Assembly: GCA_030248065.1 (NCBI GenBank) | Contig: JASAMV010005825.1 | Location: 1 to 64,000 of the forward strand | Direction: 5' to 3' | Length of the DNA: 64,000 nucleotides | Source of the DNA: Rhynchonema sp. JSB1_4 | Taxonomy: Eukaryota > Nematoda > Chromadorea > Monhysterida > Xyalidae | Shown: positions 2,930 through 62,971 of the stretch, piece by piece | Numbering within the stretch: the first letter of the stretch is position 1 | Layout of the letters: each line of letters starts with the position of its first letter | Made by a program: the position numbers and the translations under genes | The notes under the pieces: model-generated | Seen by the model: the letters and a program-made list of their open reading frames with translations, nothing else | Database searches by the model: none | What the model was told of the DNA's origin: nothing

Positions 2930-5900
2930 TTATGTGACCGTGTACTGCCATTCTGAGCGGATAACACGACCGTACTGAAACAAGTTTATAAATGAAGCAA
3001 TGATATAAAATCGGAACGAAAGAAGTCAAAAGTGCAGAAAAAATGAAATGAAATGATATTAGCTTCACTTTAGCATTTCGTCTCAGCGCTCTCTCAAACA
3101 TACACCAAAAAGACTACGAATCTAGAAAATTGGAATGGAAAGGGAACTAAACATAAGAAAAGTACAAGTAAGAAATAAACCGAGATGATTACCTGAATAT
3201 CGCTGATAGAGTCGAATAGTCGTTGCATTAAAGATGATTTTTGTTTCATTGTCGGGATTTCGAGCTTCTCGGTAAGATCACCTAAAAGTCAAGTGCAAAT
3301 TACCAAGGTTAGCAGAGCAAAAAAAACAAGCGTAAAACGCGAAACTACTGTGCGTTCGAGAAGTCAACCAAGCTTGGTGACATGACAGGCTAAAATCCCA
3401 ATTCCGTATCCATCAATAAATATTTTATTGATGGGATAAACACCAGCGCGAGGTTGGACGAAACAATGGCAGTTCTTCACTGTTGACAACAAATAAAACT
3501 GCCGAAATCTCAAGTGCCCCGAACAACCGTGCAACGCCCACTCTTTTTGTGGTGAATTGGTCACTCCAGCAATACCCTGTGATCATGAAAACCAACCAGA
3601 TTTGTACAGGATCCCATCGACGGGACACACAATGCACGCCGTACCGGAACCGAACATTTCGTACAACTGAAAACGAACTAATAATGTGCCTGCTTCTTTA
3701 TTGGCGATGAACGTTGTACTTTCCCAGCCGTACTAAAACTGGTTTTCATGCAGACTTTCGACCGTGAAAATGATTGTTTCAGAGTAAGCGCGAGGCGCGC
3801 TCAATATTTATGTCGCAATCCAAGAACACCCGCGTCGGGCTGCATGATGTTTCAAAATACTGACACCACCGACCCTTTCCTCCTTGATCGCGTTGCGTAT
3901 CTGTGCCATGGTCGGATAGTCCTCGGTGACCTTGAATTCATTCCACTCCCTGCACATGTCCAATAATGTCTGTCGCACCACACCCGGCAGAATGATGCCG
4001 TCCTTCAGCGGTGGCGTGATTAGCTCTTTTTCTGCAACATTTCGCCGGCTTGCAACGCAAGTGCTACGTGCCTGATCATGTGCGTGCACATCAGGGCAGG
4101 ATAAAGAAATACTCACTCAAAACGTCACTTTGCGGCCAAACCAAACCAGTGGCGTGGCATGAACCACCACAAATGATACCGATGTTGCCCCACTGGCCAC
4201 ACGTTCAAGAAACGGTACCTACCGCCATTTTCATTCGTCCAAAACAGAAATATATTCATCGTGCCGACTTCGGTCAGCTTTTCATCCTTGTCATACAACC
4301 AGAGCACTTGTTGACAGCCCAGTTCCATCGCTTTCTTCGCGATCAGAATGGTCGGAGCGTAGTTACTGAAATTTGCCATTGTCTCTCCAGTACCATTTGA
4401 GAGCTGGTTGCAAAGATGCTGAAACATCGCAACTGTTTCACTGACTGTACAATCTGTTGCTGGATATTACACTGCGATTTTTCAGCACCCAGAAACAAAA
4501 GACGAATGCACAAACGATCAATCATGCCTACAACAGGTATAAAAAACTGCACTCAATCAATCAATACCTTACTCTACATTACAAAAAATCAATCCATTCA
4601 CTTACAAATTGACCTGTCATGCTTGCATGCCTCGTAATCAGTGGTCCACAAAGCCATCGATAACAAATTCAATCAGCCAGAAAGCCATTTATGAAACAAA
4701 ATATTTCAGATTCCAAGAGAAAATGCAAGCGAGATAATAACTGTTCGCAACAGCAAGCCTGGGCCCTGCATTTTTGCTGGTTGGTTGATTGTGGCACATC
4801 TAGTCCTGCCCACTCACACAACTGCTTGCCGGGCTGATGTTTCAACAGACAGACTGCTCCTACATATACACCCGCATACCATCCAAGTTTGTGTCCTCCA
4901 CATATGCCCACCGCCGTCCGCACGTACTGTGGATCGGCCAGTAACTGAACGGCCCGAAATCCGGTGGGAAAGTAGGCGCCAACGGGGCCGATGATCACAA
5001 ACAGCATCGCCTCTGGACTCACTCCGATGCCGACGTTGGGCTACCAAGAGAGGAGAACCTCGAGTCTGGCATCATTCAGGGATGATAGGGCCCTTATTTG
5101 CTCAGAAACAGATACTTTACATTCTTTTGCGAAATAAATACGTAACTGTGCGTGTTTGCAAGTGCGACGCGAAAGTACAGTATAAGCAGAGTTAGTTAAT
5201 TATTACATAAGCGGACACAGTGCAAACATAGAGACAAGCGCGGTCCCTTTCACGAGCTCAAGCTGAACTTAGCAAGCACACGCTAAGGTTCATGCGTTTG
5301 TGGGTTTCATGTTCATCTGCGATTCTTCATCGCAAACATCCGAAATTCGCGTGTTGACCCCAATTATACAGCTTCAACAATCTTTGTCAGCCTCCAAACT
5401 TCAGACCGCATACGTGTGTAACTGTGTAGGTCCCCGCCAATGTGGGTCGTGTGTTTTGCTGCTGAGTGTCCCGTGCTTGTGCCGTGTCTACGCAACCACG
5501 TGGCTGCTTACTGACTGGCCTATATGCATGGGTATGGTATGACGTCAACCAGTCAGCAGCAGCCGTGTCAAAAACGTGTATTCACATGTATGTCCCGCCA
5601 TGTATGTATGTAAGCCAAGCCAAACCAGGAAAAAAACGGCAAAAGCGTCAGCTGGCTAGCCGACCAGCCAGCTTGCCAGGCTATCTTCAGTTCATGTGCC
5701 CCAGAAAAATAGCTGTTACCCAACAAGGTATTACGATCAATACAGACGCAGGAACAATTGTGTCACAAAATCTACGTGTGGAAGTTCGAGAATTTGAAGC
5801 GCTTTTGAATAATACGTGTGGTGTGTATCACTTTTTACAGAGTGCACCTTCACGTTGGCTAAAGCCCTTAAACGAAGTTAATCTTCGTGAAAAACGCAAA

Positions 5901-8759
5901 ACGCAGCATCCCGCCTCCCTAGAGAACACAACCAACCAAACTTCCCACTTTTAATTAAAGCTCAGAAGCACCTACTGCGTGTGGTCAGTCATAAAAGCAC
6001 ATCTGCGCTGCCACAAAAGTTTATTAGTTTTGTTTGTTTTGCAAGAATCACAGACGGTAGCATGAAACCCACGTGTGCTTAGCAAAACAGCCGCTAAGTG
6101 AGTGTTTTCGTGCTGTTGACCCTTGTTTAGTATCTATCATCGGTTAAAATAGAGCAGGCATGCAAGCAAGTAGAGGACAGAATCAATGCCAAACGAAGGA
6201 AATTAACAAAAAAAGGAGAAAACGACCAAGCAAAGCATCGTGCCAGTGTGCAAAAAGAAAATATGCAAAGAGAGTGTTACGCACCACCCCATTTTGTACT
6301 CGCCGGTGCCTCCGATTCCGGCTCGAATGAAAGCACCGTTGGCCATGAGTTGAACGGGTTGAAAGCCGGTCGGGAAGTACGGACCAACGGGGCCCTGGAC
6401 GACGAATAACCTTGCGTTCAGACTGGTGGACACACCGAGATGCGGCTGAAATCAATGAACAACAACACGACGGTGAAACTCGTGACAATCAGCGCGTTGT
6501 ATGCTGTGAACAACACGCAGTCAACAACAACAACTGCAACAACACAACAACAACAAACAACACTAAATGTGTTGTATTGTGGATCATAAGACTTAGTGTT
6601 GAACAACACCTAGATTACACTGCATCGTGCTGCTTCCGGAGTTGGGGGAGAAAGAAAAAACAGAAACAGAATGTTGTTTCGAGTGACAGTCCAAGCTACA
6701 CAGCAATCGTGGTTGTCGAACTGATGCGCTGAGCAGAGGAATTATAATATCTCTCAATAAAAATGCGCCTAACCTCCCCAAACGTATGGAACTTATCACA
6801 ACACTCAAAGCGCAATCGGTTCGTGGCCAATACAACAACGGCTTTTGTTCAAAAACCCAAACCATTGCAATTTTAATCGAAAAATTGTTAACATTTGGGC
6901 TTTCGAAAGCGATCTGGGGCATGACAATATCAATGCGACAGCCGGCCTAACTTACGATCCCATCTTAAACTCGCCGACTCCGCCGGGCCAGGCGCGCACG
7001 AAAGCCGGATCGGCGAACAGTTTTACGGGCTTGAAACCGGTGGGAAAATACGGACCGGCCGGGCCGAGCACAACAAACAGCGTTGCCTTGTAGCCGTGCG
7101 CTACGCCAAGATGGCCCTTTGAGGGTGGACAGGGGTAGGTAGGTTGTAAATTGCATTATACGAATTTTCGGAATGGGATGAACATCAATGCTTCTATGTA
7201 AATACCTCCCAAGTAACAAACTGGCAATCAACACAGGCAATGCTTTGACTATTTAGGCTCCGGCGCCGGCAGATCGATCACGGCAAAATCTAACTAAACT
7301 ATGAAGCAGGCTTACTAATCTTTGTAACCTACGCAACATCTTTTTGGCAAACCAATAAAACAAGACTTCAACAGCCTTGCTGGATATCTACACAGGTAAT
7401 CTAATCAGTCCGCTGTGCTAGTGCTATGTTGTGCAGAAACCAAGTAAAGAGTGTCCCTTCACCAAATCTAGATCTAACTGTTGTGTGTGAGAACCAAATA
7501 AAAGACTATATCACCCCACCCACCACCATCAAAAAAGATAGACCACCACAGAAACTCGTTCTGTTCGTTGGTGTTGTGTGAAAATGAGTTGGTTAGGTTA
7601 GTTAATTAATAATCGAGTAATTCTCAAACCTTGCTCAAGAAAATAGTCTGGAACAAATTAAACTACGTACATCTGTGCCAATCATGGTGGGACGAATGTA
7701 TAAGGAACTGGTGGTCGAATAGGGCACCCATTCCTGGTCGATTTTTATCAGCTCACCGATGCATTTCAGCAACTCGTTTTTGTCAAATGTCTGCAAAAAT
7801 AGTGAAACGGAATGTTTGCAGTTCACTGGAAATGAGATATCACCGTCATCGATCGAACAAAATTAAATGATCCAGTTTCAAAGCAATTTACCGGCAGCGC
7901 GGCCCGTTCAGCACTGCGAACCATGCGTTCCATGTTCATGTGTGGTCGGAACACGCGAATGCGATTGTCGACGCCGCGATACGCTTTCATGCCTTCGAAC
8001 AACTGCAACAAGCAACCAACACGCATATCGGCCATGCGACTAGCGGTTCACACAAGACAGCATATTACCTCAATGGCATAATGCAGCACTTTTGCGCCGG
8101 GATGAATTTGCAGATCGTGCATCGGCACAATCCTCGGTTTTGTCCAGCCATTCTTCGAGTCCCAATCCACCTGGACGACAAGAACAATCTCAGCCCTATT
8201 TTGCACGCTAAGATAACATCTCCAATTCCAACAAGGTCCATGGTTCATCTCAAGGGCTGGGACTTTCTCACCTCAAGCATATGGTCCGAGAAATGATGCC
8301 CGAACACAAGGTTATCAGGATCGGGTTTCGGTGCCGGATCAGACGTTTGTTCCACTTGCAGATCGTTGAACTGCAAAGGTTATGAGATCTGAGATTTACA
8401 GATTCAGGAAAAAGTCACTTCTTAAGGCAAGAATTTGATCCATATTTGTCCCTTTTTCGAAAAAATAACAAAATAAAGATTTTTGGGGACTTTTGACAAC
8501 CTTGACATAAAAATGCATATTTTGGGCAGAAATTTGGGGGAACTTCCCCAAAGCAACTCACCGGTTGAGATAGAATGAATAACAATAATAATAAAAGTCC
8601 AGATTCAGCGTAAACAACGAAGAAACTGACAGAGAAAGACGTCATAGACGATTGGAATCGCTTGATGTGAGACGACGGTATGCGCAACGTCGACGATGAC
8701 CGCAACAGACGTGACGCATGATGTCGGACCGCTCGTGAACACACAGATGCTGGCGACAT
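2930..8759 (-). CDS. Branched-chain amino-acid aminotransferase (BCAT) with three alternative sixth exons
   Basis: This PLP enzyme moves the amino group between Leu, Ile or Val and 2-oxoglutarate, the first step of branched-chain amino-acid breakdown. Exons on the minus strand: 8631-8759 (start ATG), 8272-8370, 8069-8170, 7892-8002, 7671-7790, one of 6956-7116 / 6285-6445 / 4880-5040, then 4223-4365, 3874-4031, 3597-3666, 3193-3281 and 2930-2974 (stop). All phases join without gaps, giving 408 residues, close to mammalian BCATs of about 390. The N-terminus is rich in Arg and Ser with no acidic residues in the first 40, as in a mitochondrial transit peptide. Landmarks: [32 protein letters not shown], the PLP lysine in [27 protein letters not shown], the redox CXXC in GTACIVCPV, and the end [12 protein letters not shown]. 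Family and exon chain are near certain; mitochondrial location is inferred. Confidence 0.95.
4880..5040 (-). other. BCAT alternative exon 6c
   Basis: Length 161 nt, phase 0 in and phase 2 out. It encodes [20 protein letters not shown], then [19 protein letters not shown] and GICGGHKLG, with a split Cys codon (TG|T). The PLP lysine is kept, but the residue before it is His instead of Phe or Tyr. The donor is GTATGC. It lies 514 bp upstream of exon 7 and 1,244 bp downstream of 6b. Confidence 0.92.
5285..6085. repeat. Possible diverged inverted repeat in the BCAT 6b-6c intron
   Basis: GGGTTTCATG followed by CTGCGATTCTT near 5306-5330 is mirrored by the complement of AAGAATCACAG near 6043 with CATGAAACCCAC near 6060. 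The arms are short and imperfect. It may be an old foldback element that enlarged this intron. The rest of the intron holds no exon I can support. Confidence 0.35.
6285..6445 (-). other. BCAT alternative exon 6b
   Basis: Length 161 nt, phase 0 in and phase 2 out, the same as 6a. It encodes [20 protein letters not shown] and on to GGTGEYKMG, with a split Cys codon (TG|T). Catalytic Lys and GPYF are kept, but the usual LADP is changed to MANG and RAW to RAG. The acceptor is TTTCAG and the donor GTGCGT. Its upstream intron on the sense strand contains a long UGUUGU-rich tract (see the regulatory entry). Confidence 0.92.
6446..6560 (-). promoter_or_regulatory. UGUUGU-rich intronic tract just upstream of BCAT exon 6b
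   Basis: The plus strand carries many CAACA and AACAAC units up to about 6560, so the pre-mRNA has a dense UGUUGU run ending at the exon 6b acceptor. Such UGU-rich runs are typical binding sites for CELF/Bruno-family splicing regulators. A role in exon choice is inference; a simple-sequence expansion serving as the polypyrimidine tract is the alternative. Confidence 0.4.
6956..7116 (-). other. BCAT alternative exon 6a
   Basis: Length 161 nt, phase 0 in and phase 2 out. It encodes [10 protein letters not shown] and 43 more residues ending GGVGEFKMG, with the split Ser codon completed by exon 7 (TC|T). The PLP lysine is residue 51 of the exon and GPYF is conserved. It keeps [11 protein letters not shown], the most family-typical middle segment of the three versions. 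The acceptor is CAAAG and the donor GTAAGT. It lies closest to exon 5, 554 bp downstream of it. Confidence 0.92.
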
Positions 8760-8944
8760 TTTGGTTTATCTTTATCGGGTACTGAACGCAGTTTATGCGT
8801 TTTCTGTGCAATCACAAATTAGTGGTTGGTTCGTCGGCTTGCCTGAAAAAAAAGCAAAATTTGTGGAAATATTCTTGCGAGGTGCGAGCTTTCCGACGTG
8901 GTGCTGGTGACATCTTCTTTACCACCACAGGCCACAGTGGTGAC
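8760..8944. other. BCAT 5' flank
   Basis: This stretch lies between the BCAT start codon (8757-8759, minus) and the first transposon terminus at 8945. The minus-strand promoter and 5' UTR must start here or within the repeats beyond. No TATA box was recognised. Less than 190 bp of unique DNA separates the ORF from transposon sequence. Confidence 0.4.
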
Positions 8945-9333
8945 CAGTGTAGTGGCAGGCCCATGTGTGGGAGGTAAGTATGACGCGGGGTTGGGACCGG
9001 ATGCGTGAGAGGTATGATTTTGGTCACCCAAAAAGGCAAAAAAAACACCGTTTTTGTGATACAATTTTGGCCAAAAATTGAGGTAAAAATAGTACTTTTT
9101 CCAAATTTTCGCCGAAAATCGCCTAAAAATAGGTATTATGGGTGCGCGATTTTTGGGAAATTAAGGTCGAAAAACACCGATTTTTGCCTTAAAAAGTATA
9201 AAATTGCTTGTGAGAGGTATGACTTGGAGTTGTGAGAGGTAAGTACTCAACCCCCCCCAACCCCCCTCGGGTTTTGTGGTAAGTAAGTACTCAGAGGGGG
9301 GTAACCCCCCCAACCCCCCCAGCCACTACTATG
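8945..9333. mobile_element. hAT-type MITE, 389 bp
   Basis: The left end is CAGTGTAGTGGCAGG and the right end the decayed complement AGCCACTACTATG. The flanking octamers GTGGTGAC (8937-8944) and GTCGTGAC (9334-9341) differ at one base and fit an hAT 8-bp target duplication. No transposase is encoded. The same left end in reverse occurs near 33793. Confidence 0.75.
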
Positions 9334-9341
9334 GTCGTGAC

Positions 9342-10742
9342 TAAAATTACGGCAGTTTACATTGTCGGGAAATTTCGGCCCCGCATAGACGCGGCCTGCC
9401 CACAACAACAACTACATTGTCGGAAAAACGTCTTTCTTTCAACAAAAACGTAACGCGGCTTTTTCAGTCAAACTATATACTAGCACGAGCACGTAAGGAA
9501 TTTTTGCCCCTTTTTGGAAAAAATTCTTCATAAACAGGGTACCTATTTCGGCGACTTTTGAGAGCATTGGCCTGAAAATCACACTTTTTAGGCCTAAAGA
9601 TGCCCATTTTAGGTCCAAAAATTCCTATTTTAGGCAAAAATTGGGGAAATTAGTGTACCCGCCGGGAGGCAGTGGTGTAGCTACCCAGGCGGGGCGGCGG
9701 CAACCTACTGTACCACCAAAATGTGAGCGCGCGAATTTTGTGTAATTTGAGGCAAAAACCACTGATTTTACACTAATTTTGGCCATTTTGGTAAAAAATT
9801 GGCACTTTTGGGGCAAAATCGGGGGGATACCTACTGTACCGGGGTGAAAATCGGGGGATACCTACTGTACCATGCCAAACATCGGGGGGGATACCTACTG
9901 TACCAGGCGAGGGGGGATACCTATACTTGCGGGCCGGAAAAAAACCGTTTTTTTCGAAAAAAAACCGTTTTTTCCGAGGCCCGGAAAAATACGTTTTTAT
10001 TTTTCCGGAAATTTTTCCAAGTGGCAACTTTGGAAAAAAACGGTTTTTTTCCAAAAATTTCCGAAATATTTTCAAAGGTTGCGAAAGGATGTTGTCAAAA
10101 CCAATGTAAATCGGTGTTAAACAGTTCAAAATGAGCACTTTTTAATCTCCAAGTGCATTTTTAGCCTGTTTCAGGCCATTTCCCAACAATATTTTCTCCA
10201 AAATAGGCGTTTTTGGACCATGGGTATCCTTAAGTACTGGAAAAATATTTGGAAAAAAACGGTTTTTTTTTTCGGAAAAAAACGGTTTTTTTTCCAAAAA
10301 TATATTTTGCGGAAAAATACGCAAGTATAGGGATACCTACTGTACTCCCCCAAACCCCCACCTCCAACACTGTCATAGTGTCATTGACCTAAAAATCACC
10401 CATTTTAGTCCTAAAAATGGCCATTTTAGGCCTAAAGATGCCGATTTTAGGCAAAAATTGAGGCGGTTAGGGTACCTGGCGCGGCGGTTAGTGTACTAGT
10501 GTACTTTGGTCGCGGCGGTTAGTGTACCTTAGGGGGACCCCCTCCCCCCAGGAACTACACTGAAAACACTCAATAATGACCAGTAACACCCTGACAGAAC
10601 TCCATTTTAGGGGCATTTTTGGGAACATTTTTTGAGATTTTGGGCAGCGAAAAATGGGTCAGTGAAAAAATACAGCCCCCTTGAATTTTAGATTTTACGG
10701 TACCTACTGTACCGACCGGCCGAGCTGGGGGGGAACAAAAAT
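9342..10742. repeat. Overlapping MITE fragments rich in G and C runs
   Basis: This region is a mosaic of pieces seen elsewhere in the window. Examples are GATACCTACTGTACC units at 9825-9925 (again near 12545-12660 and 24770-24860, reversed), a piece starting CAGTGGTGTAGCTACCC at 9671, an end ACCTCCAACACTG near 10376, and an end CCAGGAACTACACTG near 10562. TTTTAGGCCTAAA motifs repeat in the spacers. Whole-element boundaries could not all be resolved. No gene is present; the ORFs here are translated repeats. Confidence 0.7.
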
Positions 10743-19713: not shown

Positions 19714-22700
19714 CTAATCGGCGTGCATTTTGCCATTCGGCAGCACATTGCCATTCACTTCATAATGCACGCCATTCCGTATGAGCCCATTGGCCAGCTC
19801 CTTCTTGTCACGTCGTTGTTTCGGCTCGGCGACAGCCGGAGACTTGTGACGTTTGCTAATGTACGCCAAATAGAAATACCGTACGAACAACGCACAGTAG
19901 GTGGAGTACATGACAGCGCAGAAGTAGATGTTCTCCCACGTCTGATGGCAGTACTGGCCGGGCGTGGTCTTGAGTCGGTAGGTCTGCCAGCTGACAAAAC
20001 AGCCGACAAACATCTGCGCAATCTGCAGCGTCGTGATACTGGCTGATATGAACTTTGGCAGTCGCGGTCCGCCGGATGACATGTACGCGTAGTAGGTGTA
20101 CATGATGGCGTGCACCGTGTAGTTCATCCAAATGAACCACCGTCCGGCCACCGTGTGATCGCGCACCGCGTGCCACGTGTACGCCAGCACCGTCACGTGA
20201 TGGTACCAGTGTAGGAACGTCACCGGACTGCAACAACAGTGGTCGTGGCATACGCAGGGTTGGGCAAAAAAAACGACGGCGTTTTTTCTCAAAAAAACGA
20301 CGTTTTTCAAAAAAACGCCTGGGTCGTTTTTCGTTTTTTTAAATCCTGAATTTTCTTGATTTTCCCTGATTTTTCAGGGGAAGTACCCTGATTATCAAGG
20401 AAAATCAATTTTTTGTCCCATTTCTTTCAAAAAATTTTCGACCAATTTTTACTTTGTCGAGATACGTCGATATACGGAGTTTGACTTTCAATGATGACCC
20501 CGGCCAAAGTTGGTCCCATGATGCGGGTCTGATATGGGATCGCTAGAAAAGGGTTGAAACCCGTTTATTTTGCCTCAGAACACATAGAATTACTTCATTT
20601 AACCACGTTTTCTTCCCAACATGAGCGTTTTCCAATTTTTTTGGGGGCATATTTTGGTCATCTGGGCGTGTCAAAAAAACGGTTTTTTAAAAAAACGTTT
20701 TTTTTAAAAAACGATTTTTTGAAAAAAAAAACGTTTTTTGCCCAACCCTGGGCATACGTTTTCGAATTGCTTACTACTTTAAAGTGACTGAATGTTGACC
20801 GCGTTTGTTTGCAGCCATATTTTTAGTAAATGAAGACAAGGTATCAGAAACCCAGATTTAGGGAATGGATTTTCAACTCGTTGCTTTGTGATGTTTCACG
20901 GAGCCCACATATTTTCACAGGAGAAAAAATGAAAAAAGTTTGAGGCGGGCCTGTGCAAGACACAAGGTAATCCAATCTAAGATATATTCAGCGTTTTATG
21001 CACAGACGTTTCTCTGTTAAACCAGATATGAAGCATTGTAGGAAACGCCAGGTGTGACAAATGATAAACGAAACACTCCGAAAAATCAAGCGTTTTTGAA
21101 GCACCCTTTTACTGCTGTATAATTTTAGGCATCTGTGGTGAATGAAATAAGTTGCCAATTGCAAATAAAAATCGCCCAGTTGTCCTGTGTTCAGAATGTG
21201 CTTTTCGTTTTTCAAAACCCTACACAGCTCACACAATGTTTACCACAGCATGCGCAAGGCAGCCAATCCACAGCGCACACACACAACAAAGCTTGCCAGC
21301 TGAAACATTGCTGTGTTGTCGCTCTGCCGGCTGTGTGTTGTCGTTGTGTGTGCGATGTGGAATGGCTGCCTTGCGCATGTTGTAGTAAACATTGTGTGAG
21401 CTGTGTAAGGTTTTGAAAACTGAGAAGCACAAACACTGGACTTGATAATTAGACGATTTTTATTTGCAATTGACAACTTGTTTAATTCACCACAGATGCC
21501 GAAAATTATACAGCAGTAAAAAGGTGCTTCAAAAAGGCTTGATTTTTCTGAGTATTTCGTTTATCATTTGTCACACCTGGCGTTTCGTACAATGCTTTAT
21601 ATCTCGTTTAACAGAGAAACGTCTGTGTATAAAACGCTGAAAATATCTTAGAGTGGATTACCTTGTGTCTTGCACAGGCCCGCCTCAAACTTTTTCCATT
21701 TTTCTCCTCCCGTGAAAATATGTGGGCTCCGTGAAACATCACAAAGCAACGAGTTGAAAATCCAGTTCCTAAATCTGGGTTTCTGATACCTTGTCTTCCT
21801 TTTCTGAAAAAATGGCTGCAAACAAACGCGGTCAACATTCAATTGTAGAGGCACTTTTGACGGGTATAGTCGGGCAACATCCAGCACAGTTCCCCAGAAG
21901 GGCAAATCCTATACATTGTAGGCGAAACATTTCGACAAAAGATCTGGAACCGCACACTTAAACAGCACCAAACAGTTATCCAATCCTCTTAGCCGACCCA
22001 AAGCCGCACCGTTTTCTCAGCACCAGGAACATGGTATCACCGAGCTCGACCACTTTGCTGAACGCGAATTGTTCACCCCAGAATGCCACAACCGAGTAAG
22101 ATAGCGACACTGTGCAGGCGGTGCCGATGAATCCACGGTTACGGTAGACGAACCTGTGACAAACAACAAGTTGAATTGTTTGAATGGGCTTGGTGCCAAG
22201 TGCGATCATGATTAATAGTCTTCATAACCACAGCTATGCATCAAAATTTGATTGCAGTTTCGCAGCTGGGCATAAGTGAAACAATCATCGACAATATCGT
22301 TGCACTGCACCATTTCCAAATCACCCGTGATTTCTGTTGTGTGTATGGGAGATAGACTTGAGAATTAGGCTTGGGGATGGGCATGTTAGGCTTTAGCCTC
22401 GGGTTGAGTGAGCACCGGTCAATCAGTCGGGCCTGCGTATGCAGGCACTGTGTCACGCATTCAGGCTTAGTTTTCAGGCTTATATTTCGGCGTAAACTCC
22501 GCTCAAGTTTGGCTCAGCCTTGGGATTAGGCCTTCATATGGTGAACCGCACCCCACTGGACTGGACGACACTGGTGCTGTCCTCCGACGCGGTACGGACT
22601 ATGGGTGGGCACAATACCCAATACCCAATACCACCCAATACCAATACCAATACCAGTGTTCGGTATTGGTATTGGGTCTAATTCTGGTATTGGGTATTGG

Positions 22701-30171: not shown

Positions 30172-33018
30172 TCATTTGGCGTCGATGTTCACTTGTTGTT
30201 GTTGCGTGTCGTCCAGAGCTGACGGTACCGTTAGCGAATAGTCGTAGAAACTGACGGGGTCGCGAATTTCAGGCACCTGAAAATTTTTTTTAAAACCAGA
30301 CGTAAAAACGGTAAAAACAGCCGTAGAGCATGCATTCTACCTCGTAATTTCTCTCGGTCAAAAATTCTCCGACGTTGTTGTGCACTTGGACGTGTTGGTC
30401 GAACGCTTTGCGATCAGTGAACAGGATTAGGCACACCTGCAATCGATGGGGCAATTATTTGCTCTGCTAACATGTGACCTCATATGGTATTATTCGTCAA
30501 ACCAGAGATAAGACCACGTTGATCTGATAAAAAATACGTGACAATTATACTACAAAGCTGTTGGGCGACAGGTGGACATGAGAACAAGCGCCATCAAGGC
30601 GAGAATTTGTTCTTTGTCCTCTGAGGGAACGAAGTATAGTTAGGCATTTAAACCCAAAAAACAAAGCTCTAGCTCTTGTCATTCGACCAACACGACACAA
30701 CAGCTCGGTCTGTTCGAGATCGATCTGATGTTCCATAGCCAAATGTTCCTCGGCTTCGACACGCGACAACAACTGATTGCGACACGATGTGACCGGACAG
30801 TCGTATTGTTCGAATGGCGCCGCTTCGATCAATTTGAATGTCTCCTCGAACGCGAAACACTTGTGCTCGGCGCAACGCAACAGCTCTTGCAGTCGGAGCA
30901 GCTGCAAAATAGGGGACTGCGATCGTGCTCTTGTGCTCGATAAAAGTCTGTCAATTAGGACTTGTTTCCACTGACATTCGCACAACAATATTGATGGCCA
31001 GGAACACCGAAGTCATTGCAAGAAACCTTCACGAAAAAAATGAGAAATGTTTCAGTGTTGGCATGCTTACGTACAGGAATAAAATAGAAACAATTTTGAC
31101 GGATTTGGGGCCAAGCAACACAGAAAATTTCATGTACATAAACTGGAGATAAAGCTTGCCACCCCTATAACAAGACTTCAAAAAACGAAAAGCTGAGATG
31201 GCGCTGGGTGTGCGGGTGAGGGACAGGGATCGAAAACGCTAATTGGTGCTCACGCGCGCGCCAGGCAATCAGCGCGCGAGAATTTGTTTCGCGTTGCGTG
31301 AGAGAAAGAAGTCTAGTCAGGACACACCGTTGCAAACCCACTGCCAACCTTGTCATGAATGTTCATCTGAGGCAATATATCGCCGCGTTTGATCCTGTCC
31401 ACCCAAACACGGCTGTCGTCTCCGAGTCCGAGCTTCTTGCGTTTTCCGTGTCGCGAGATTGGCGTGGGCATGAACGGTTCACCACGAGCACTGCGCACAA
31501 TGATTGCATCCGATGGGATCTCGGCCGGGCCGCGACGGTTGCTGGAATGCCTATAGTTTAGCTTTTGTCTGAATTTGTACAGAGTTTCGTTTCGTCCCAC
31601 GAATAGCAACCAAGAAGGTGCGTGCAAGTAACAGGTGAAAAGACCCAGCCCAAAACTATTCAATGATTGGTGGATCAAAAATAGGTACATTTGGATCCTT
31701 TTGGGAAAACATTCGAGGCATCCCACAGAACCACGATTACTGATGATCTGTGCGTGCCACGCCACATTCTGCTTGACAGAAACTTCATCCTGTCCCGGCG
31801 AAAGACATCAAAAGGAAAAGGAAATCCAAAAAACGCCAGAACGAACCTAGCGAACGGTTTCCAGGCCTCGTCCAGTTCTTCCTTACTGGACACATGCGTC
31901 TTGAGATGTTTCTTCAGATTTCCCTTCAGTCGACACTGTTTGTTGCAATACGGGCACGTGTGGACGACAGAGCCGGAATGGACGGACTTGTGTTCGAATA
32001 GATTCGATTTGAAACGGAATGCCTTGCCGCACAGCTCGCACACGAACGGCTTCTGGTCGGTGTGAATGACCGCGTGTTGCGATAGACCTGAATAAGAAAA
32101 CAGCGATTAATGGTTGCGAATACGACAATACGAACTACAGGACACGGGCAGTCAAAAAATGCGCTATGCGGTCTGCCTTTACACCGCGACTTCATTTCGC
32201 AGTTTGGAAGACACTTGATATAATAAAAATTAGTGAACCTCTCACCTTTAAAAGACACGAAAATTTTGTTGCATGTACCACACTGGTGCACAGCGCGAGG
32301 CGGATAGTTGTTGAGCGAGCCAGCAGATCGAGGTGTCAAATTGGTCCCGATTACCTGCAAGAAGCGAATTTGCAACTGATGGTAGTTTTTCGGACATTTT
32401 TAGGTGCAATTTACACCTGAAAACTTCGATTGTCGTCACCCACAACCATCACCGAGCGTTCTCAGTTTGCGCTAAAAATATGTTGATTTCATGGCGCAAA
32501 TTACACCTGAAATTAAATAAATCCCTGCAGAACTAAATACTTGCACGATTCAATAACTGCTGACAGCACATAACTTCCCGTGTCTAACGTGCCCAGCATC
32601 AAAGGTAAATACAGGATTAAAAGGGGACAAAAACATAGTGACCGACCACCATGTTGGGGGTTGGGGCCGTACTTCGGGCAGGCGGACGGGCTTTATTTTT
32701 CACTGATTTGCAAAAAGATTTCCCAGAAATGCGCCTGTCCGTTTAATGAGGTTGAAAATGGTTTGCTCTCATGCAATCGCACTTATCCATCTGGTGTGTA
32801 TGGTTCGAAATAACCAGTGCTTCATATATCGCGAAAAAACACAAACGAAAAAGAGCTGGAGTATAAACTGAAAAGAAAATTTAAAGAGCTGGCACCTTAA
32901 TTCCCGGATGTCCCGGCGTCACAACGGTGGTCAGTTCATCCTGGTGCACGTCCCCAACGAGAAATTCCGCATCCGCACTCATTCCATCCGCATCGTCGCC
33001 GTGCGGATCGTCGTACAT
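30172..33018 (-). CDS. C2H2 zinc-finger protein, seven exons, 367 aa
   Basis: Minus-strand exons are 32896-33018 (ATG), 32246-32354, 31847-32087, 31349-31568, 30692-30901, 30341-30436 and 30172-30276 (TGA); every junction is in phase. Five C2H2 units are visible: CGTC with HAVIH (split by intron 2), CELC with HKSVH, CPYC with HLKTH, a CX4C unit CPVTSC with HLAMEH, and CRVC with HVQVH (split by intron 5, donor GTTGGT). Fingers 1-3 are adjacent with TG(E)KP-like linkers and probably bind DNA. Fingers 4 and 5 are separate. The N-terminus is acidic (MYDDPHGDDADGM); a basic patch RHGKRKK in exon 4 may be a nuclear signal. The C-terminus has a short Q4 run. A nuclear transcription factor is inferred; orthology is unknown. 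Confidence 0.85.
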
Positions 33019-44580: not shown

Positions 44581-45510
44581 TCAAACAGCATCCAAAAGCA
44601 GCACAGCATCATTGAGCCAATAATACGCCTGCGTGGCGTCACCCTGACACAAATAAGGCAGTTTGGTCCATTTGATCACTCGAAAACCAGCCGGTTCAAG
44701 CACCCTCTCAACGATATCCGTAACTTGATGCTCAAAATCTGGCCCCAATACAGCTAGACTCTCATCCAGACCCTTGCTGAATTCGCTGAATTGACTGAAA
44801 GGCAGCACAAAGGCCAAAAGCACGGGAATGCGATGTTCCAAAGCGACGCGATGCAACTCGGATAGCAAATGATACGGTTTGGGATGTCGGTCGAGCAAAT
44901 TCAGACAAGAAATCAGTCTGCATTGACGAAGTATCGATTGATCGGTCGCCCATTTGTCGATTTCCATAATCGAATATCCCCTCTGCCGCAGTCTGTACTG
45001 CATCGGGATGGATGGCTCGGTCACATAGACCCTGCCGTCACCAAACATGGGCGCCAGCATGGCCGTCACCTCGCCGTCGCCGGCTCCAAGATCGAGCAGA
45101 GCTGTTCTTTCATTCGAATCACCCCGATTTGAACCGTATTTCGTTTGATATTGGATCAAAACCGGCTGTAGGAATTCGTTAAGATGGTCGGATGAGAAGA
45201 TGAACATTTGTCCACGATTCAGAATGCCATTTATGGACGTTTTCGTGAGCACAACACTCAAAATCGCACTTGCCACCGAATACCAAAGTTGGAGACAGAC
45301 TGAGTCGGCGACAGCAGTTGAATCGTCGAGAAATTGTTCGGTGGCCGAATCGAAATTCAATTGATGAAATTTTGAGCACAATTCTTTCGAAGGCAGGCGA
45401 TCCAGCTCAACCTGGTACCATTTTGAGCGGTCGAATTTGGCCAAATTGGCGTCGTTTTGCTGCCGAGTGTCGATCAGCTGCAACAGTTTCTGGCCTCGCG
45501 TCGTCGACAT
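44581..45510 (-). CDS. METTL9/DREV-type protein-histidine N-pros-methyltransferase, intronless
   Basis: A single open frame of 309 aa, starting MSTTRGQKLLQLIDTRQQ and ending NDAVLLLDAV. The family uses S-adenosylmethionine to methylate the pros nitrogen of histidine in HxH motifs of target proteins. Visible landmarks are the SAM-binding LLDLGAGDGEVT, the second acidic strand VTEPSIPMQYRLRQRGY, the family signature ISCLNLLDR, VLLAFVLPF, and the C-terminal KLPYLCQGD with YYWLNDAV. Length is close to human METTL9 (318 aa). The frame stays open 55 codons upstream, but the chosen ATG gives the usual N-terminus. Every other gene here has several introns, so absence of introns may indicate a retrocopy that stayed intact. 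Confidence 0.92.
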   Translation of the reverse strand: MSTTRGQKLLQLIDTRQQNDANLAKFDRSKWYQVELDRLPSKELCSKFHQLNFDSATEQFLDDSTAVADSVCLQLWYSVASAILSVVLTKTSINGILNRGQMFIFSSDHLNEFLQPVLIQYQTKYGSNRGDSNERTALLDLGAGDGEVTAMLAPMFGDGRVYVTEPSIPMQYRLRQRGYSIMEIDKWATDQSILRQCRLISCLNLLDRHPKPYHLLSELHRVALEHRIPVLLAFVLPFSQFSEFSKGLDESLAVLGPDFEHQVTDIVERVLEPAGFRVIKWTKLPYLCQGDATQAYYWLNDAVLLLDAV

Positions 45511-45996
45511 ATCTGGAAGAGTTGAGAAGAATGGCCATTTGTGCCCAAATAAACCACAGTTGAGAATACAGCACGAACAGTTCGTTACGAGTGAAACATT
45601 TTTCTGCCTGGCCCGTGAAAGCGTCACGACAGCTGGCTGGTAAAGCAAACATAAATACATATATGCACACAGCACACCACAGCGCTCACTGTGACTACAG
45701 GACTGCCCATGTACGTGAGAAAACAGTGTACCATATAAGGTATACGCACCCTAGCTGCCTACGGTTATGAGAAACTGGTTACATGAACTGACACCATCAC
45801 CAAAATACGCAAACGGCTAGCCATTTCGGGGAACAGAAATAATTTGAAAAGTGGTGTACGTACTCAAACAATGTTGAAAGAAATACCAATCCAAACATGA
45901 ACAACCAGAACATGAAGTTTCGGATAATGGCCCTTGAGGGTGCACGGTTCGGTTGCACGCGCTTGGAAGAAGTGAACATAACGAAAGGGAACAAAA

Positions 45997-46354: not shown

Positions 46355-46537
46355 AAAGGGAACAAAACGTTTTGAAACATGTCGGCAGTGTAGTGTATGC
46401 TCCAATTTACAATTAGTTACACGCAAACTAAAAGTCACCACGTGCGTATTAGGACGAAGCAAACCAGTTCATGACGTTACTGGTTGAATTTTTTAACCTC
46501 AAAGTTAAAACTGCTTCCTGAGTTTCATTATGCCAAA

Positions 46538-47756
46538 ATGTTACGCAGCATCACAGGCATAATTTTCTTTCTATTACAATTCCAAGTGCCTGTCACTGTG
46601 CAACTCCGCACACAAAACAACGAGAACTGTGGATTTTTGAACTTCACAACTTCCCTGATCTACAAAGGCAACCCTGTACCTCAAGGCCAGCATAAATGGC
46701 TCGTCAACTTTCGTCCCAAGGACGGTTCGAAACGTTTGACATGTGCGGGTGCTAAAATCGCCGATAATCTAGTGCTCACAGTCAGACACTGTTTCCAAGA
46801 GAAGATACAAGATGGATATTATGGGTAAGTGGCAGCTGATAACAAACTACACACATATACAGACACAACGAGGCCAGATTGTGAGCCTTCGTTCTTGTTA
46901 TCATGCCCATGTGCGCGCACTGGGTGTCCAAATGGAGCAAAGGGGAAAATCTTCTGACTTGACTTTAATTGAACTGCAGGATCACTGACCCGAAGTCGCT
47001 TTGGGTATATTATGGCACTCACCATCTCAATGGACCACAAAGTGACGGTATAAGAGTGCCAATCGATACAATACACATGTGTGCGTATGCAGATCTGGCG
47101 CTGGTCACAACACAAGGCTCAGGTCCTATCTGTTGCTAGTATATTCTGACACACAGAAATTCTTCTGGGTTACTGAACTCAGATGTTTCAGTGACCAGCA
47201 TCCCAAACCTCTGTCTACCATGTGGCACTGACGCATTTGAGCCACAAGCCAACGAACAATGTCTGGTAATTGGATGGGGCTATGATGAAGGTGCGTGAGA
47301 GAATGAAGCGGAAATTTTGAAACAAAATGAGAAAATCAGACTATAAGCTACGAAACAAACACATGAAATCTGAGAAAACAAACTTAGTGCAACGTAGAGG
47401 GCACCAGGCAAGGCAGAAAAGCGAGATAATAAAAATGAAGCGGCAGTGTATGGACAGACAGATAAGAGGTGCGGCGTCCTGCGAAAACAACAAATTTATT
47501 CTCGGTATATAGCCTGTTCGCTCTTCACAGCTTATCAGCCATCTAACGTACCTCGTCAAGCCAAAGTTCGTGTCAACAGCAACAACTACTGCCAGAAGCA
47601 CAGTCGAATTGCCAATTATGATGACTCGATGCTTTGTGCCGGCACCAGAGGCACTCCGAATGCCTGTTGGGTAAGTAAACTGAAAAAGTATTTGAAATTT
47701 GTTGGTAATAACCGGCAATACTAGCAGCATGGTGTGCTGCACCACCGATGTGAACG
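46538..47756 (+). pseudogene. Trypsin-like serine protease, decayed 3' end
   Basis: Exons are 46538-46824, 46980-47122, 47183-47290 and 47531-47670, phases matching. The N-terminus MLRSITGIIFFLLQFQVPVT is a signal peptide. An S1 fold follows: LTCAGAKIADNLVL, the histidine in TVRHC (for TAAHC), the aspartate in ADLALV, LCLPC, CLVIGWGYDEG and DDSMLCAGTRG. After ACW at the next donor, the only matching sequence is 47725-47756, coding SMVCCTTDVNG in another frame. The block for the catalytic serine (GDSGGP) is absent, and no C-terminal WI-type exon was found before the neighbouring gene. It is therefore a pseudogene or, less likely, an inactive serine protease homologue. Confidence 0.75.
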
Positions 47757-48050: not shown

Positions 48051-49913
48051 CTAGTCTTCGACTAAGCACAACGCCGACATCGGTGTGTGCGTGGCAGCAC
48101 CGTTGCTCCACAGCACATAGCAGCACACACCCTTGTCGACATGTGGCTGTTTCACATCTTCTAGCTGAAACACACAGAAAAATGTTACAGTATGTCAAGC
48201 TCTGCTAATTTTGAGCATCCCACAGATGCCGATACTGAATAGCCATGGGAACAAGCATGATAAAATTGGTCACCGAGCGTGATGCTACTTCGAACGGTTC
48301 AAATAAGCCGTGTGCAAAATCAATTGTCGTCACTTTGAAAGACCGAACGATTTCAGCCTTGGGCATCTATATCACCAAACGAAATCGTGCTAACCATAAC
48401 TCACGCGCACTGTAACGCTTGTGATCACGATGCAAGAAACGATGTACAAGTGTCCCCAAAATATCAACCGATCGACTAACATCCTCGTGTTTGACGACTC
48501 CATTAACAGTGCGCATGGCGTGCATCACCACCGCCTCCCATTGTTGCACACTGTTGTCGCATGATGGGGCATAGGCTTTGTTCTGTACGTAGTAGTTGGA
48601 CGCACCTTTGTAGCCGCACGTGTAGCAGATACCGTACATCTGCTTGGCCTGGTCGCGATTCTGCACCTCTGCAACATACAATAAACTTTTAGGTATTTTA
48701 TCACGGCAGCAAGCATGAAGCAAGTCATCATTGAAAACTGATCGGAAATCGGCACACTTCAAAGATACTGCATTGGCTGAGCAGCAGGACAGACAACAGT
48801 AGGCCGCTCATCAGCCGGATGCATGCAACAATACGTTGTGATCTCGTGAAACATTAAAACCACGAACCATAAACCGACGGCAACGTATAACCAGCGCCCG
48901 ACAGCCCGCTGCGAATGCAGGCACGTGCGAAACAATGCCAGAATTGTTTGATTGCAGCTGAAATAGTTGTAGAATGATGCCCATTGTCGTGAAATAAATT
49001 TTCTCACAACAAGACAAAACAATTTTCGAAAGATTGTTGACCTGGTTTCCACATGACGTGGTCGTCAGCTCTGAACATTGGCACAGTCGGTGATTTGATG
49101 ATGGACGCACTGTTCGTGGACAGACGAATAGCGGCCAACATCGAGCTCATTTGGTAGAACTGAATCAGATCTCTGTCTGGTTGTCGCGTGAAAAGTATTA
49201 CGAGCAAATCTCATGTCGATGATGAATGTAATGACGACTGTGACAAAAGTCAAAGTTCCGAAGCGACCTGTGTATTTGACGGGGCCAAATCAATGGATTG
49301 GAATGACGATTGCGAAACGTTTTGATTACCGACTCGGAAACAACTATCACCGCCAAAATGGGCACGAGTGGCATCACAACCTCTGAACATCACACAAACC
49401 AAAGTCTGTAAATTGTACAATTGACCCAAACATGCCCACCCTCGCCGCACCTCGGCCTCAATCTCCAGCAGTTTCATCAGTGTCGCATCATTCCTTGGCA
49501 GGGCCCGTTCACCATTGCGCATATAATTGAGAATGTGACCGAACACGTCGCCGTCGCGATCGATAAACAGCTCGTCGTTGGCGTTGCGATCTTTAGAATC
49601 GATCGGCGATCTGGCGAAAGTTGAATTATTAAAACCTGGCCCAAAATTGGTGCCAGGGGCACCTAAAACTGCTGTTTAAGTTATTTTGTCCCCTATTTAT
49701 GTGCCAGAACGTCTTCTCAGCACCTAAAAATCGCAGGTGGCACGGCGCGTCTCGTTTGCAAAAAAAACCAGAAGCGAAGGCAAAGAAAGGAACACACTTG
49801 ACCAATCTTGCCACCATGTTATTCGGGTCAGCCATCAAAGTCCCACGCGTCGTTTCGTAATGACGACCACCGACATTCAAACGGACGTGATCATAGCCAT
49901 TCACCACACTCAT
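48051..49913 (-). CDS. KCTD-like BTB/T1 domain protein, copy 1 (261 aa)
   Basis: Minus-strand exons are 49798-49913, 49451-49610, 49042-49159, 48868-48957, 48481-48668 and 48051-48164 (TAG), all in phase. The BTB (T1) domain begins VRLNVGGRHYETTRGTLMAD and continues FIDRDGDVFGHILNYMRNGE. FYQMSSMLAAIRLST follows, then a conserved C-terminal part: MYGICYTCGYKG, MHAMRTVNGVV and CCYVLWSNGAATHTP. KCTD proteins often act as adaptors for cullin-3 ubiquitin ligases or as channel partners; which applies is unknown. This is the most diverged copy: shorter exon 4, longer last exon, donor AA|GTGTGT in exon 1. ATG at 49911-49913; upstream in-frame ATGs exist. Confidence 0.85.
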
Positions 49914-50946
49914 TGTTGCTAGAGTTCGTAATGGGTTGATTGTGATCAAAATGGAGCTGTAGGATCTGAAAGTCGTTCACATAGATTCACACAGAATGGA
50001 ATGCCGATGAAAATTAACATAAATTTTCGTCCACAATCAAAAAATTACTTAAATCACATGGTAATTGCCAGCTGGAACTGGAAATCGGACGGAAACCACC
50101 ACCAGACGATTCCGACTACACACAGTTTTCACTTTTTCAATTTCATCGAGCCACACAAACAGTGAAATGGACGGGAAAGATAAAAAAAGACGTTCATGAC
50201 CATTGTTCTGCAACCTAGACCGTACTAAAGTAAAAATTGCATCATATGAGCACTCAAAACAAAGCAATAACAATAGATCAAAAAAACAAATTAAATCCCA
50301 CAGGACCGGAATCAAGAATAAATTATTCTAAAAAGGCACCCAAAATACGCATATTTTACACAGCTGCTTAGTCTTCAATCTTACACAGCGCAAACTTTGG
50401 TGTATGGGTCGTCGCACCGTTGCTCCAGCGAACGTTGCAGCACAAGACCTGTGGAAAGGAAAAAGCAAATTGGTTAAAAATTAAAAGCAAATTGATAACA
50501 AAAATTAAAATGTTGGAAAAAAGTACGAAGCTCAATTTGGTTGGGCGGTTGTGATGTGATTCACGAATTTAAATCGGGCTCTGCCGTTGCCACTGATGGC
50601 GATGCTGACCGAAACTAAACGCCATGGCGCGATTACAAACAAAGGCATGAACACCGGCACACCTCGGCCTCATATTCACCCTCGACGACGCCTTTGACAG
50701 TGCGCATTGCTTGCATCACAGCTGGCGACCACTGTTCCTGACTGTTGTCACCCGTCGGCGCGTACAGTTAGTCTTTAGTGTAGTAACTGCCAAAACCGAT
50801 CGTACCGCATGTGTAACAGATGTCGTACAGGAATCGACCATTGACCCTCGGTTGCACTTCTGGAACACCGGGATGAATTCGTCGCATTTCCTATCCCAAT
50901 CAATGACAGGTATGCACTTTGCTGCCATGGTCGGGTCGGGCTTTGT

Positions 50947-52109: not shown

Positions 52110-52958
52110 GGGCGCGCCCATGTAGGCCAGGGCCAGGGCCGGGGCCGGGGCCATGAAAAATAATCTATGTCCGAGGCCCTGGCCCCGGCCCTGGCCTAAT
52201 GGGCGCACCGACAGGGCCGGGGCCGGGGCCGGGGCCGGTGCGAAACATTTTTCTGGATAGGCGACGTTAGAACTACAGGGTTGTCAATAATCCAACATCG
52301 GTTTCGTATACATATGCAGCTGTGCGTGTGTGTTCGTGTTGGGTGTGCTGTTGCCTGATGTATCAAGGGCACGGTCATTTTGGGGTTTTATTTAGGTTAT
52401 GCATATGTATTTGTTCAAGCAAATTAATATAAAGCGCTTTATTCTTAAAATACTGGCTGATGAAAAGTCACCAGATGACATAAATTTTTTGAGCAACCAC
52501 AGTAAACGACATGTCTGCGCGAAATTCGAGTAACCTATAACTCAACCAATCAGCGAAACGCGCACGTCGTGTATGTGCACGGTCAAAAGCAAACTGTATG
52601 TGTGTAATTGCAGGTAGAAACTCAGTGTTTTGTCAACCATATTTCAAACTGCAGCCCGAATTTGCAATTTACAAAAAAACACAATATAGCCATGCCCTTG
52701 ATAAATCAGGCAGTAGCGCACCCAACGCGAACACACACGCACAGCTGCATATACGAAACCAATGTTGGATTATGGACAACCCTGCAGTTGAAACGTCGCC
52801 TATCCAGAAAAATGTTTCGCACCGGCCCCGGCCCTGGCCCCGGCCCCGGCCCTGTCGGTGCGCCCATGTAGGCCAGGGCCGGGGCCAGGGCCTCGGACAT
52901 AGATTATTTTTTATGGCCCCGGCCCCGGCCCTGGCCCTGGCCTACATGGGCGCGCCCT
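52110..52958. repeat. Inverted repeat with GGGGCC/GGCCCC hexanucleotide arrays
   Basis: The left arm starts AGGGCGCGCCCATGTAGGCC and the right arm ends with its complement at 52958. Both arms carry GGGGCC and GGCCAGGGCC arrays (near 52130-52240 and 52820-52940) and a shared segment with TTTTCTGGATAGGCGACGTT. The arms are about 265 bp and the spacer about 310 bp. The TAA flank on both sides may be a target duplication. It lies in intron 2 of KCTD copy 2. Confidence 0.85.
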
Positions 52959-53262
52959 AAGTTTGTTTCTGAAGATTGGGTCCCAGCTGAACGCAAGCAC
53001 AAACTATTGAACTGCACCTGCGCTTCATTCAGCAGTTGATCCAACAGCATCTCATCATTTATTGTCACCATTTTTCCATCACGAAGGAAGTCGAGCACGT
53101 GCACGAACAGGTCGCCGTTGCGGTCAATGAAATACTCGCTGGTTGACGCGTCGTTGCTCCAGCTGACAAAAAAACAAGTTGGTGGAATAAAACAAAACTC
53201 TGGTACGTTCGACCAGACATGTGTGTCACGACTTTTGGCAACAACGAACTCTACCGTCACAA

Positions 53263-53396
53263 CAGTGGTGTAGCTACCCAGGCGGGGCGGCAACCACACC
53301 ACCCAAAAGCGGGGGACACCACACCAGCAGGGGGGACGGGGGAAAAAAACACCCCAAAACCCCCACCCCCCCACCCCCCCCCCAGCCACACCATTG
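53263..53396. mobile_element. hAT-type MITE, 134 bp
   Basis: The ends are CAGTGGTGTAGCTACCC and the imperfect complement AGCCACACCATTG. A perfect 8-bp duplication CGTCACAA lies at 53255-53262 and 53397-53404. A third CGTCACAA follows the adjacent retroposon. Confidence 0.8.
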
Positions 53397-53406
53397 CGTC
53401 ACAATA

Positions 53407-53749
53407 TGCTAAATGGTGGCACACGGAAGTGACGGACAATCACCAACCCACCATCTGTTCTGGACTGTTGACAATATGGACTGATGCCAATATGCGCCCT
53501 CTGAGCCCGACATTTGTCGTTTGACGAGGATTAATGCATAATTTTCAGCTCTGTTAACATGTCCTGTGCTCTTCCGTGGTCTTTCTCTCTCCTTGGCGCT
53601 TTTCGTAGCTTTTATTTGCTGTGGTTTTATAACCAGTGTTGTAACTATTTTCATTTCCGTAATAGTCCCACCCGGTCTTGTAACTGTGCTTCTATCACTA
53701 ATTTACGTGCATGGTTTTATGCGTCACTGAGAGCAATAAACCAACCAAC
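53407..53749 (+). mobile_element. Short retroposon copy, 343 bp
   Basis: Flanked by CGTCACAATA (53397-53406 and 53750-53759). It begins TGCTAAATGGTGGCACACGG, 5'-truncated like 45997-46354, and ends AATAAACCAACCAAC. It lies in intron 1 of KCTD copy 2. Confidence 0.82.
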
Positions 53750-54544
53750 CGTCACAATAACAAAGTGTGTAACACAAGACAAATTATTGTCATCAAACCT
53801 GCACATTTTTGCCAACATACTGTCGGGATCAGCCATCAAGGTTGTGCGCGTGGTTTCGAACACTCGACCACCGACATTCAGACGAATGCGATCTTTGGCG
53901 TTCATTGTTGGCAGGATTGGTGATCGTGGATTGACAGGGGGAAAGCTCTTGAACAGATATTCACTCGAATAAATAAATCGTGAATAAATCCCAAGTGAAG
54001 TGGTGTACTGCACTGCATTTCGTGTGCACATGTGGAATAAAACCATGATTATCAAACTTATGCTCTCGCCATAATTTGTTCACCATGAGAAAAATTTATT
54101 CACGACAAAGACAAACGATAGTGACAAGGACCAACCGCCAACATCACGCGAAAACTGAGACTAAATTCGGGCACCAACAAATTCAGGTGTTTGGCTGAAT
54201 GAAAACTGGGGATTGGGCACCAAAATAAATGCGGGCAGATGACAGGTAACAGCAGAGCTGTGCAAATGTAATATTTGAATCGTATTATTATCTTGGGAAC
54301 CACTATCCTGCAATATAAATACTACAGCGTTAAAAAAACTTTGCAACCCTTGATTTTTTGGCAAGAAGAACAAATTCTTACATAAAATACAATGGGTCTG
54401 AACAGATCTGAGAAAATCAAAAACCTTCATGAAACCGATTAGAAGCAGCGAGACAATAAAAACGATCACAGTGAAAAAGTAAAATTCACAGCCCGACAAC
54501 CCGTAAATACCAAGAATAATAACCATGAGTGGAATAGTTGCGAC

Positions 54545-55001
54545 CAGGGTTGGGCAAAAAAAACGACGGCGTTTTTCTTAAAAAAACGACGTTTGAAAAA
54601 AACGACTTTTTCGTTTTTTTAATTCCTGAATTTCCTTGCTTTTTCAGGGAAAGTACCCTGATTTTCAAGGAAAATCAATTTTTTGTCCCATTTTTTTCCA
54701 AAAATTTTCGACCAATTTTTACTTTGTCGAGAAAAGTCGAAATACGGAATTTGACTTTCAATGATGACCCCGGCCAAAGTTGGTCCCATGATGCGGGTCT
54801 GATATGGGATCGCTAGAAAAGGGTTGAAACCCGTTTATTTTGCTTCAGAACACATAGAATTACTTCATTTAACCACGTTTTGTTCCCAACATGAGCGTTT
54901 TCCAATTTTTTTGGGGCATATTTTGGTCATCTGGGCGTTTAAGAAAACGTTTTTTTGAAAAAACGATTTTTTGAAAAAAAAACGTTTTTTGCCCAACCCT
55001 G
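54545..55001. mobile_element. hAT-type MITE, 457 bp
   Basis: The terminal repeats are CAGGGTTGGGCAAAAA and TTTTTGCCCAACCCTG. The 8-bp duplication GTTGCGAC is perfect (54537-54544 and 55002-55009). It is nearly identical to 20255-20750, including GATGACCCCGGCCAAAGTTG in its centre. It ends 50 bp downstream of the KCTD copy 3 stop codon, so it is probably in or near its 3' UTR. Confidence 0.93.
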
Positions 55002-62232: not shown

Positions 62233-62884
62233 TTAAAGGGGAAATTGCACATTCCTAATCGCCCTTCAAGTTTTACAAGTGTTTAGACAGCAATGTGGGC
62301 ATCACAAAAATCAAATAGTTTGGTACAAACTCTCAAACATGTACCCAGGAGATTCCGTTTAAGACAAGCCACTGGGAACAAAATTTGGCGCGGACCGGCC
62401 GAATTTCTACCTGCGCATTCAGGCAAATTGCCTGATCAAAAAGCTGTCAAGGCGACAGAATGTTTCGCACGATTCTTGAAACTCACTAACTATAGAATTT
62501 CGCTTTTCTTTATATTTCGAATTTCGACGAATTGTTCCAGCGTGTCTGCTAAATGTTTCATGCTCTGCTTGTCACGCTGGAACAATTCGTCGAAATTCGA
62601 AATATAACAGAAAAGCGAAATTTACCATAGTTAGTGAGTTTCAAGAATCGCACTATTCTGTCGCCTTGACTTTTTTGATCCCCCACCATCTGCCTGATCG
62701 TCAACAGNTGGAAATTCGGCCGGTCCCGCCGAATTTTCTTCCCGATTGTGCCCTTTAAACTGCTTCTCCTGGGTACATGTTTGAGAGTTTGTACCAAGTG
62801 ATTTGACTTTCATGATGCCCACACGACTGTCTAAACACTTGTAGAGTTTGAAAGGCGATTAGGAATGTGCAATTTCCCCTTTAA
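62233..62884. repeat. Foldback element, TTAA target, about 650 bp
   Basis: TTAAAGGGGAAATTGCACAT at the left mirrors ATGTGCAATTTCCCCTTTAA at the right; both carry TTAA. GGTACAAACTCTCAAACATG (62322) mirrors CATGTTTGAGAGTTTGTACC (62778). It shares TTTCTACCTGCGCATTCAGG and TTCGACGAATTGTTCCAGCG-type blocks with 43325-43981. An unresolved base (N) lies at 62707 in the right arm. Confidence 0.85.
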
Positions 62885-62971
62885 AGCGGCCCTGCCGCTA
62901 TTGTTTTTTTAGTTTTCGACCTCGGTTTTTTCACTTATATCATTTGTTGCCATCGAGATCAAGAACATTAG
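62885..62971. mobile_element. Single end of the AGCGGC TTAA-MITE
   Basis: AGCGGCCCTGCCGCTATTG and the following CGACCTCGGTTTTTTCACTT and ATCGAGATCAAGAACAT match the end of 56353-56912. The second end is not in the window. Its left TTAA is shared with the foldback element next to it, so two elements abut at one TTAA. Confidence 0.65.

Follow-up and report, generated by a model that had tools for sequence, protein, structure and literature searches.

The 64-kb window (the whole 64,000-nucleotide stretch of DNA analysed) carries a complete branched-chain aminotransferase (BCAT) gene at 8759..2930 on the minus strand (Table 1). BCAT begins the catabolism of leucine, isoleucine and valine. The gene has 11 exon positions, and exon 6 is present in three diverged copies (6a, 6b and 6c). 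By eye, the leader encoded by exon 1 looks like a mitochondrial targeting peptide. The CXXC motif of exon 9 corresponds to what excerpts of PMC6957111 term the CXXC center. Short tandem repeats lie at 9586-10452, and the nearest of them is some 0.8 kb upstream of the ATG of the BCAT gene.

Table 1. Exons of the BCAT gene and a repeat within it, in window coordinates
Feature	Position	Strand	Remarks
Exon 1	8631..8759	-	Start ATG; leader rich in arginine and serine
Exon 2	8272..8370	-	Joined protein matches BCATs
Exon 3	8069..8170	-	
Exon 4	7892..8002	-	
Exon 5	7671..7790	-	Phase 0 end, adjoining the variable exon
Exon 6a	6956..7116	-	161 nt; canonical version, C-terminal GVGEFKMG; acceptor CTCAAAG (weak), donor GTAAGT
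Exon 6b	6285..6445	-	161 nt; C-terminal GTGEYKMG; best acceptor among the three copies
Exon 6c	4880..5040	-	161 nt; C-terminal GICGGHKLG; most divergent copy
Exon 7	4223..4365	-	Contributes the final base of the codon that is split after KMG/KLG
Exon 8	3874..4031	-	Carries the PF01063 match
Exon 9	3597..3666	-	CXXC motif (GTACIVCPV)
Exon 10	3193..3281	-	
Exon 11	2930..2974	-	Stop codon
Microsatellite, TTG/GTT-rich	6509..6563	-	Within the intron preceding 6b; may be a mere repeat

Elsewhere in the window, a BTB/POZ gene (BTB_2, KCTD-like) occurs as three tandem copies at 49253-49976, 52907-54079 and 58216-58797 (-). Two of these gave a Pfam match and the third was assigned by similarity to the others. 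An exon of an ELO-family fatty acid elongase (19714-20373, -), a C2H2 zinc-finger exon (31675-32106, -), a DREV methyltransferase occupying a single long open frame (44581-45750, -) and a trypsin-family serine protease, matched over its first part (46475-46828, +), were also found. A dispersed DNA repeat at 20360-20784 and 54630-54955 shows similarity in several frames and on both strands. Two overlapping frames at 62863-63983 (+) resemble, by eye, a non-LTR reverse transcriptase; a Pfam scan of the first of them (62863-63459) gave no match.

Among the 120 listed relatives of the protein containing 6a, the 12 best-scoring entries with an organism label are all nematodes, at 59-65% identity. 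Entries with no organism label rank among and above them, reaching 66% identity. In a midpoint-rooted tree of the constant part, built from 43 of the 120 listed proteins, the BCAT groups with nematodes and several unlabelled entries (27 rows, support 100/96), and it is drawn, with weak support (84/34), as sister to the remaining nematode group. Judged by this placement, the gene is a nematode gene that is not close to the listed nematodes. It also looks like a single-copy BCAT. Six-frame searches of the 204-Mb assembly, in which the first-look candidates alone were scored, returned one match to exon 7 (one candidate) and one match to Aminotran_4 (PF01063; two candidates), the latter being exon 8 of this same gene. 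A second, strongly diverged BCAT in the assembly is unlikely. A second BCAT gene as the origin of the copies was rejected, none having been found among the first-look candidates of these searches.

All three exon 6 copies are bounded by GT-AG, and each enters in phase 0 and leaves in phase 2. When any one of them is joined to exons 1-5 and 7-11, the frame stays open over 1227 nt to a single stop at its end and encodes 408 amino acids. Each of the remaining five combinations (none, ab, ac, bc and abc) runs into an early stop, at residue indices from 144 to 206 counted on the exon 2-11 reading. With triple inclusion the length is a multiple of three, yet the reading still stops, since copies 2 and 3 are then out of frame. 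The initial annotation had described three homologous 161-nt exons with phases 0 and 2 that join exons 5 and 7, and recomputed coordinates, lengths and phases agree with it exactly; its statement that skipping or double use breaks the frame is borne out by the early stops in all five combinations. It had also seen here the signature of mutually exclusive splicing, and the sequence marks of this (length, phases, compatible sites, homology and frame) are present.

Copies 6a and 6b are identical at 101/161 nt and 34/53 amino acids, 6a and 6c at 89/161 nt and 25/53 amino acids, and 6b and 6c at 89/161 nt and 26/53 amino acids. A search of the 204-Mb assembly with the 6b peptide recovered both other copies, with E values of 4.0e-16 for 6a and 4.1e-11 for 6c; on these values, the homology of 6a, 6b and 6c exceeds chance. 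The same search disclosed no fourth exon 6 site at E<=10 (three first-look candidates, all scored). We rejected an assembly artefact, since 37-45% of bases differ between the copies and the region checked (4000-9000) had no reported direct DNA repeat of at least 30 bases. Excerpts of Pillmann et al. (2011; PMC3228551) list comparable length, conservation of the splice sites and of the reading frame, and homology as the criteria for mutually exclusive spliced exons. The copies described here share their length, have compatible splice sites and reading frame, and are homologous without an in-frame stop.

To place the exchanged segment, human BCATm numbering was inferred by matching query residues 3-363 to chain residues 9-364 of 1ekf, plus a one-residue loop gap. 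The letters at 153, 155, 173 and 202 agree with the residues named in the excerpts of PMC6957111, according to which Leu153, Val155 and Tyr173 of human BCATm lie in the substrate pocket and PLP is bound on Lys202. Exon 6 corresponds to BCATm residues 151-204. It thereby takes in the last part of the small domain, the interdomain loop (171-181) and the first part of the large domain, reaching slightly beyond the Schiff-base lysine. The lysine that the initial annotation had assigned to this segment is indeed there: equivalents of K202, Tyr173 and Arg192 occur in all three copies. L153 and V155 are retained in 6a and 6b and replaced by V and I in 6c. Of the 120 listed database BCATs, 118 have L at residue 153 and 117 have V at 155, and none has the double change.

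Conservation declines from 6a to 6c. Twenty exon 6 columns show at least 95% invariance across the 120 listed BCATs, and 6a matches 20 of them, 6b 19 and 6c 16; at a threshold of at least 90% (24 columns), the counts are 23, 22 and 18. The changes in 6b are D187N and W194G, the latter placing G where 118 of the 120 listed proteins have W or F. Those in 6c are L153V, V155I, P181A, W194A and G197I; G197 is found in 118/120. We also compared mean identity to the 120 listed database proteins in exon 6 with that in the flanks. By this measure, 19 of the 120 are more divergent in exon 6 than 6a, two are more divergent than 6b, and none is more divergent than 6c. The exon 6 region is likewise divergent in the database proteins P0001 (8/120) and P0006 (lowest of 120), which counts against such divergence being a property of the extra copies only. 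These two proteins may represent alternative exon 6 versions in related nematodes. Homologues of 6b and 6c were not found elsewhere, the searches having yielded just five (6b) and two (6c) candidates, too few to show absence. The isoforms read from exons 2-11 with 6a, 6b and 6c score 328.9, 331.8 and 322.3 against PRK13357 (cut-off 307) and 259.5, 259.3 and 253.2 against ilvE_II (cut-off 250.05). By these NCBIfam cut-offs, all three predicted isoforms belong to the BCAT family.

Splice-site strength was scored with a small matrix built from nine other introns. Acceptor scores were 7.9 for 6b, -1.6 for 6c and -4.7 for 6a, compared with 1.8 to 10.4 for the nine other introns, each left out in turn. 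Donor scores were 3.7 (6a), 2.0 (6c) and 5.4 (6b), compared with 0.0 to 7.1 elsewhere. The differing strengths would fit regulated use. Copy 6a has the weakest acceptor, though it is the canonical version, which counts against its easy use. Known means of enforcing exclusive choice were also considered. Steric hindrance by a short intron is not supported because the introns between the copies are 510 and 1244 nt long. Incompatibility of U2 and U12 sites (mixed spliceosomes) is not supported either; none of the four cluster introns matches the words typical of the 5' site or the branch site of U12 introns. In all six pairs of cluster introns, the best intron-intron duplex did not beat the best of six shuffles. 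For the pair formed by introns 6b-6c and 6c-7, the duplex surpassed the shuffle mean by 3.0 kcal/mol (six shuffles; DNA of one species).

Several short motifs are linked to C. elegans splicing factors, namely GCATG, TGCATG, GTGTG, CTAAC and TTAAC. Relative to shuffles, the cluster introns show no excess of GCATG, TGCATG, CTAAC or TTAAC, and GTGTG is rarer in them. TTGTTG occurs 11 times in these introns (3.9 expected), a count reached in 1/300 shuffles; seven of the 11 fall in the microsatellite. ACACAC is in mild excess (4 against 1.4; reached in 17/300 shuffles).

Taken together, these features make us confident in reading the locus as a tandem array of three duplicated exons, used in a mutually exclusive way, within an apparently single-copy nematode BCAT gene. 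The array was read from genomic DNA, and we infer one-at-a-time use from the frame consequences. The pre-mRNA would take in exactly one exon 6 copy. Products with none, two or three copies would carry a shifted frame and would probably be lost to nonsense-mediated decay; the early stops in all five wrong combinations are observed, and the decay is predicted. The choice of copy would be set through regulated use of splice sites unequal in strength, with 6a as the putative housekeeping form and 6c as the most altered form.

Both the catalytic lysine and the interdomain loop lie within the 53 swapped residues, together with two residues of the pocket wall, and the isoforms therefore probably prefer different substrates or work at different rates. 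The more specific proposal is tentative: one nematode BCAT gene may yield three isoforms with different substrate ranges by swapping the segment with the catalytic lysine and a portion of the pocket wall. Should the two pocket-wall residues extend across the dimer, as in other BCATs, mixed dimers would add further enzyme types. A different outcome, which we regard as unlikely, is that only 6a (or one copy) is active and that 6b and 6c are occasionally included as unproductive or dominant-negative switches lowering BCAT activity. The glycine of 6b at a position otherwise W or F and G197I in 6c would suit such a role, as would the mean identity of 6c relative to its flanks, below that of any of the 120 listed proteins. 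Against this, the open frame and the lysine, Tyr173 and Arg192 equivalents are common to all three copies, and most near-invariant residues persist even in 6c (16/20) as well as in 6b (19/20).

The case for three coding versions is strengthened by the pattern of substitution. Synonymous differences are saturated (pS 0.781, 0.750 and 0.782 for 6a-6b, 6a-6c and 6b-6c), and pN is 0.230, 0.339 and 0.337 for the same pairs. Saturation at synonymous sites together with low pN indicates that all three copies have long been held as coding sequence. In a neutral simulation that placed every change on one branch from 6a (5000 runs per copy), the observed amino-acid identity was reached in 0/5000 runs for 6b and 0/5000 for 6c; 1439/5000 (6b) and 1097/5000 (6c) runs remained free of stops. 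GC3 is 0.68, 0.66 and 0.64 in 6a, 6b and 6c and 0.61 in the constant exons; it resembles that of the constant exons, not the GC of the four cluster introns (0.40-0.45). In a dating tree (54 columns), all three copy branches are long and their order is not separated. By these measures, the duplications are old in neutral terms and each copy has been coding for most of that time, on a test that is blind to decay or loss of use begun only recently.

These results bear on whether 6b and 6c are leftover duplicates that splicing no longer uses. Such a history would accommodate the low acceptor scores of 6a and 6c and the position of 6c as the most divergent copy; the loss of four near-invariant residues in 6c counts against the main reading. 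We consider the relic history very improbable, given that the copies carry no stop and no indel and keep GT-AG intact despite saturated synonymous sites, and that no neutral run for either copy kept the observed amino-acid identity. That the copies are cassette exons usable together deserves almost no credence, since each of the four multiple inclusions meets an early stop, even though the introns separating the copies (510 and 1244 nt) have sufficient length for splicing.

Tandem-duplicated exons that are spliced singly are already known, including in enzymes and in C. elegans, as excerpts of PMC3228551, PMC5740500, PMC9741552 and PMC6071210 describe, and the frame rule of the BCAT cluster is itself ordinary in the light of PMC5740500. 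Like the tandem-duplication sets of PMC3228551, the present cluster consists of neighbouring copies in one gene with similar length, conserved sites and frame, and homology; it differs from those described in the excerpts in that the host is BCAT and the swapped part bears the cofactor-binding lysine. The sets in lev-11, slo-1, mrp-1, Ate-1 and Y39G8B.1 of C. elegans (excerpts of PMC9741552) are also in nematode genes, some of them encoding enzymes. The PKM and PFKP exon pairs (PMC9741552) likewise concern metabolic enzymes with interchangeable homologous exons, but the difference described there lies at an allosteric fructose-1,6-bisphosphate site and separates two isoforms, whereas the BCAT gene has three versions of an active-site segment. 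The word 'BCAT' has no match in the main texts of PMC5740500 and PMC9741552. A search of open-licence PMC papers, mostly by title, found no BCAT with mutually exclusive or duplicated exons, which is consistent with the remark in the initial annotation that no such set had been described.

The distinguishing feature here is the place of the proposed swap, the catalytic centre of BCAT; the kind of exon is known. Vertebrate BCAT1 and BCAT2 belong to the same enzyme family, with several isoforms and with solved structures for both proteins. The vertebrate isoforms come from two genes, not from alternative exons of one. If the tentative proposal of three substrate ranges and mixed dimers is true, splicing would do in this nematode what the BCAT1/BCAT2 gene duplication does in vertebrates. 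The exchanged part would be the catalytic centre itself, compared with an allosteric site in PKM and PFKP (excerpts of PMC9741552). If spliced as proposed, the gene would amount to an experiment of nature in which a segment is swapped and substrate choice can be compared, and it would offer an alternative to duplicating the gene.
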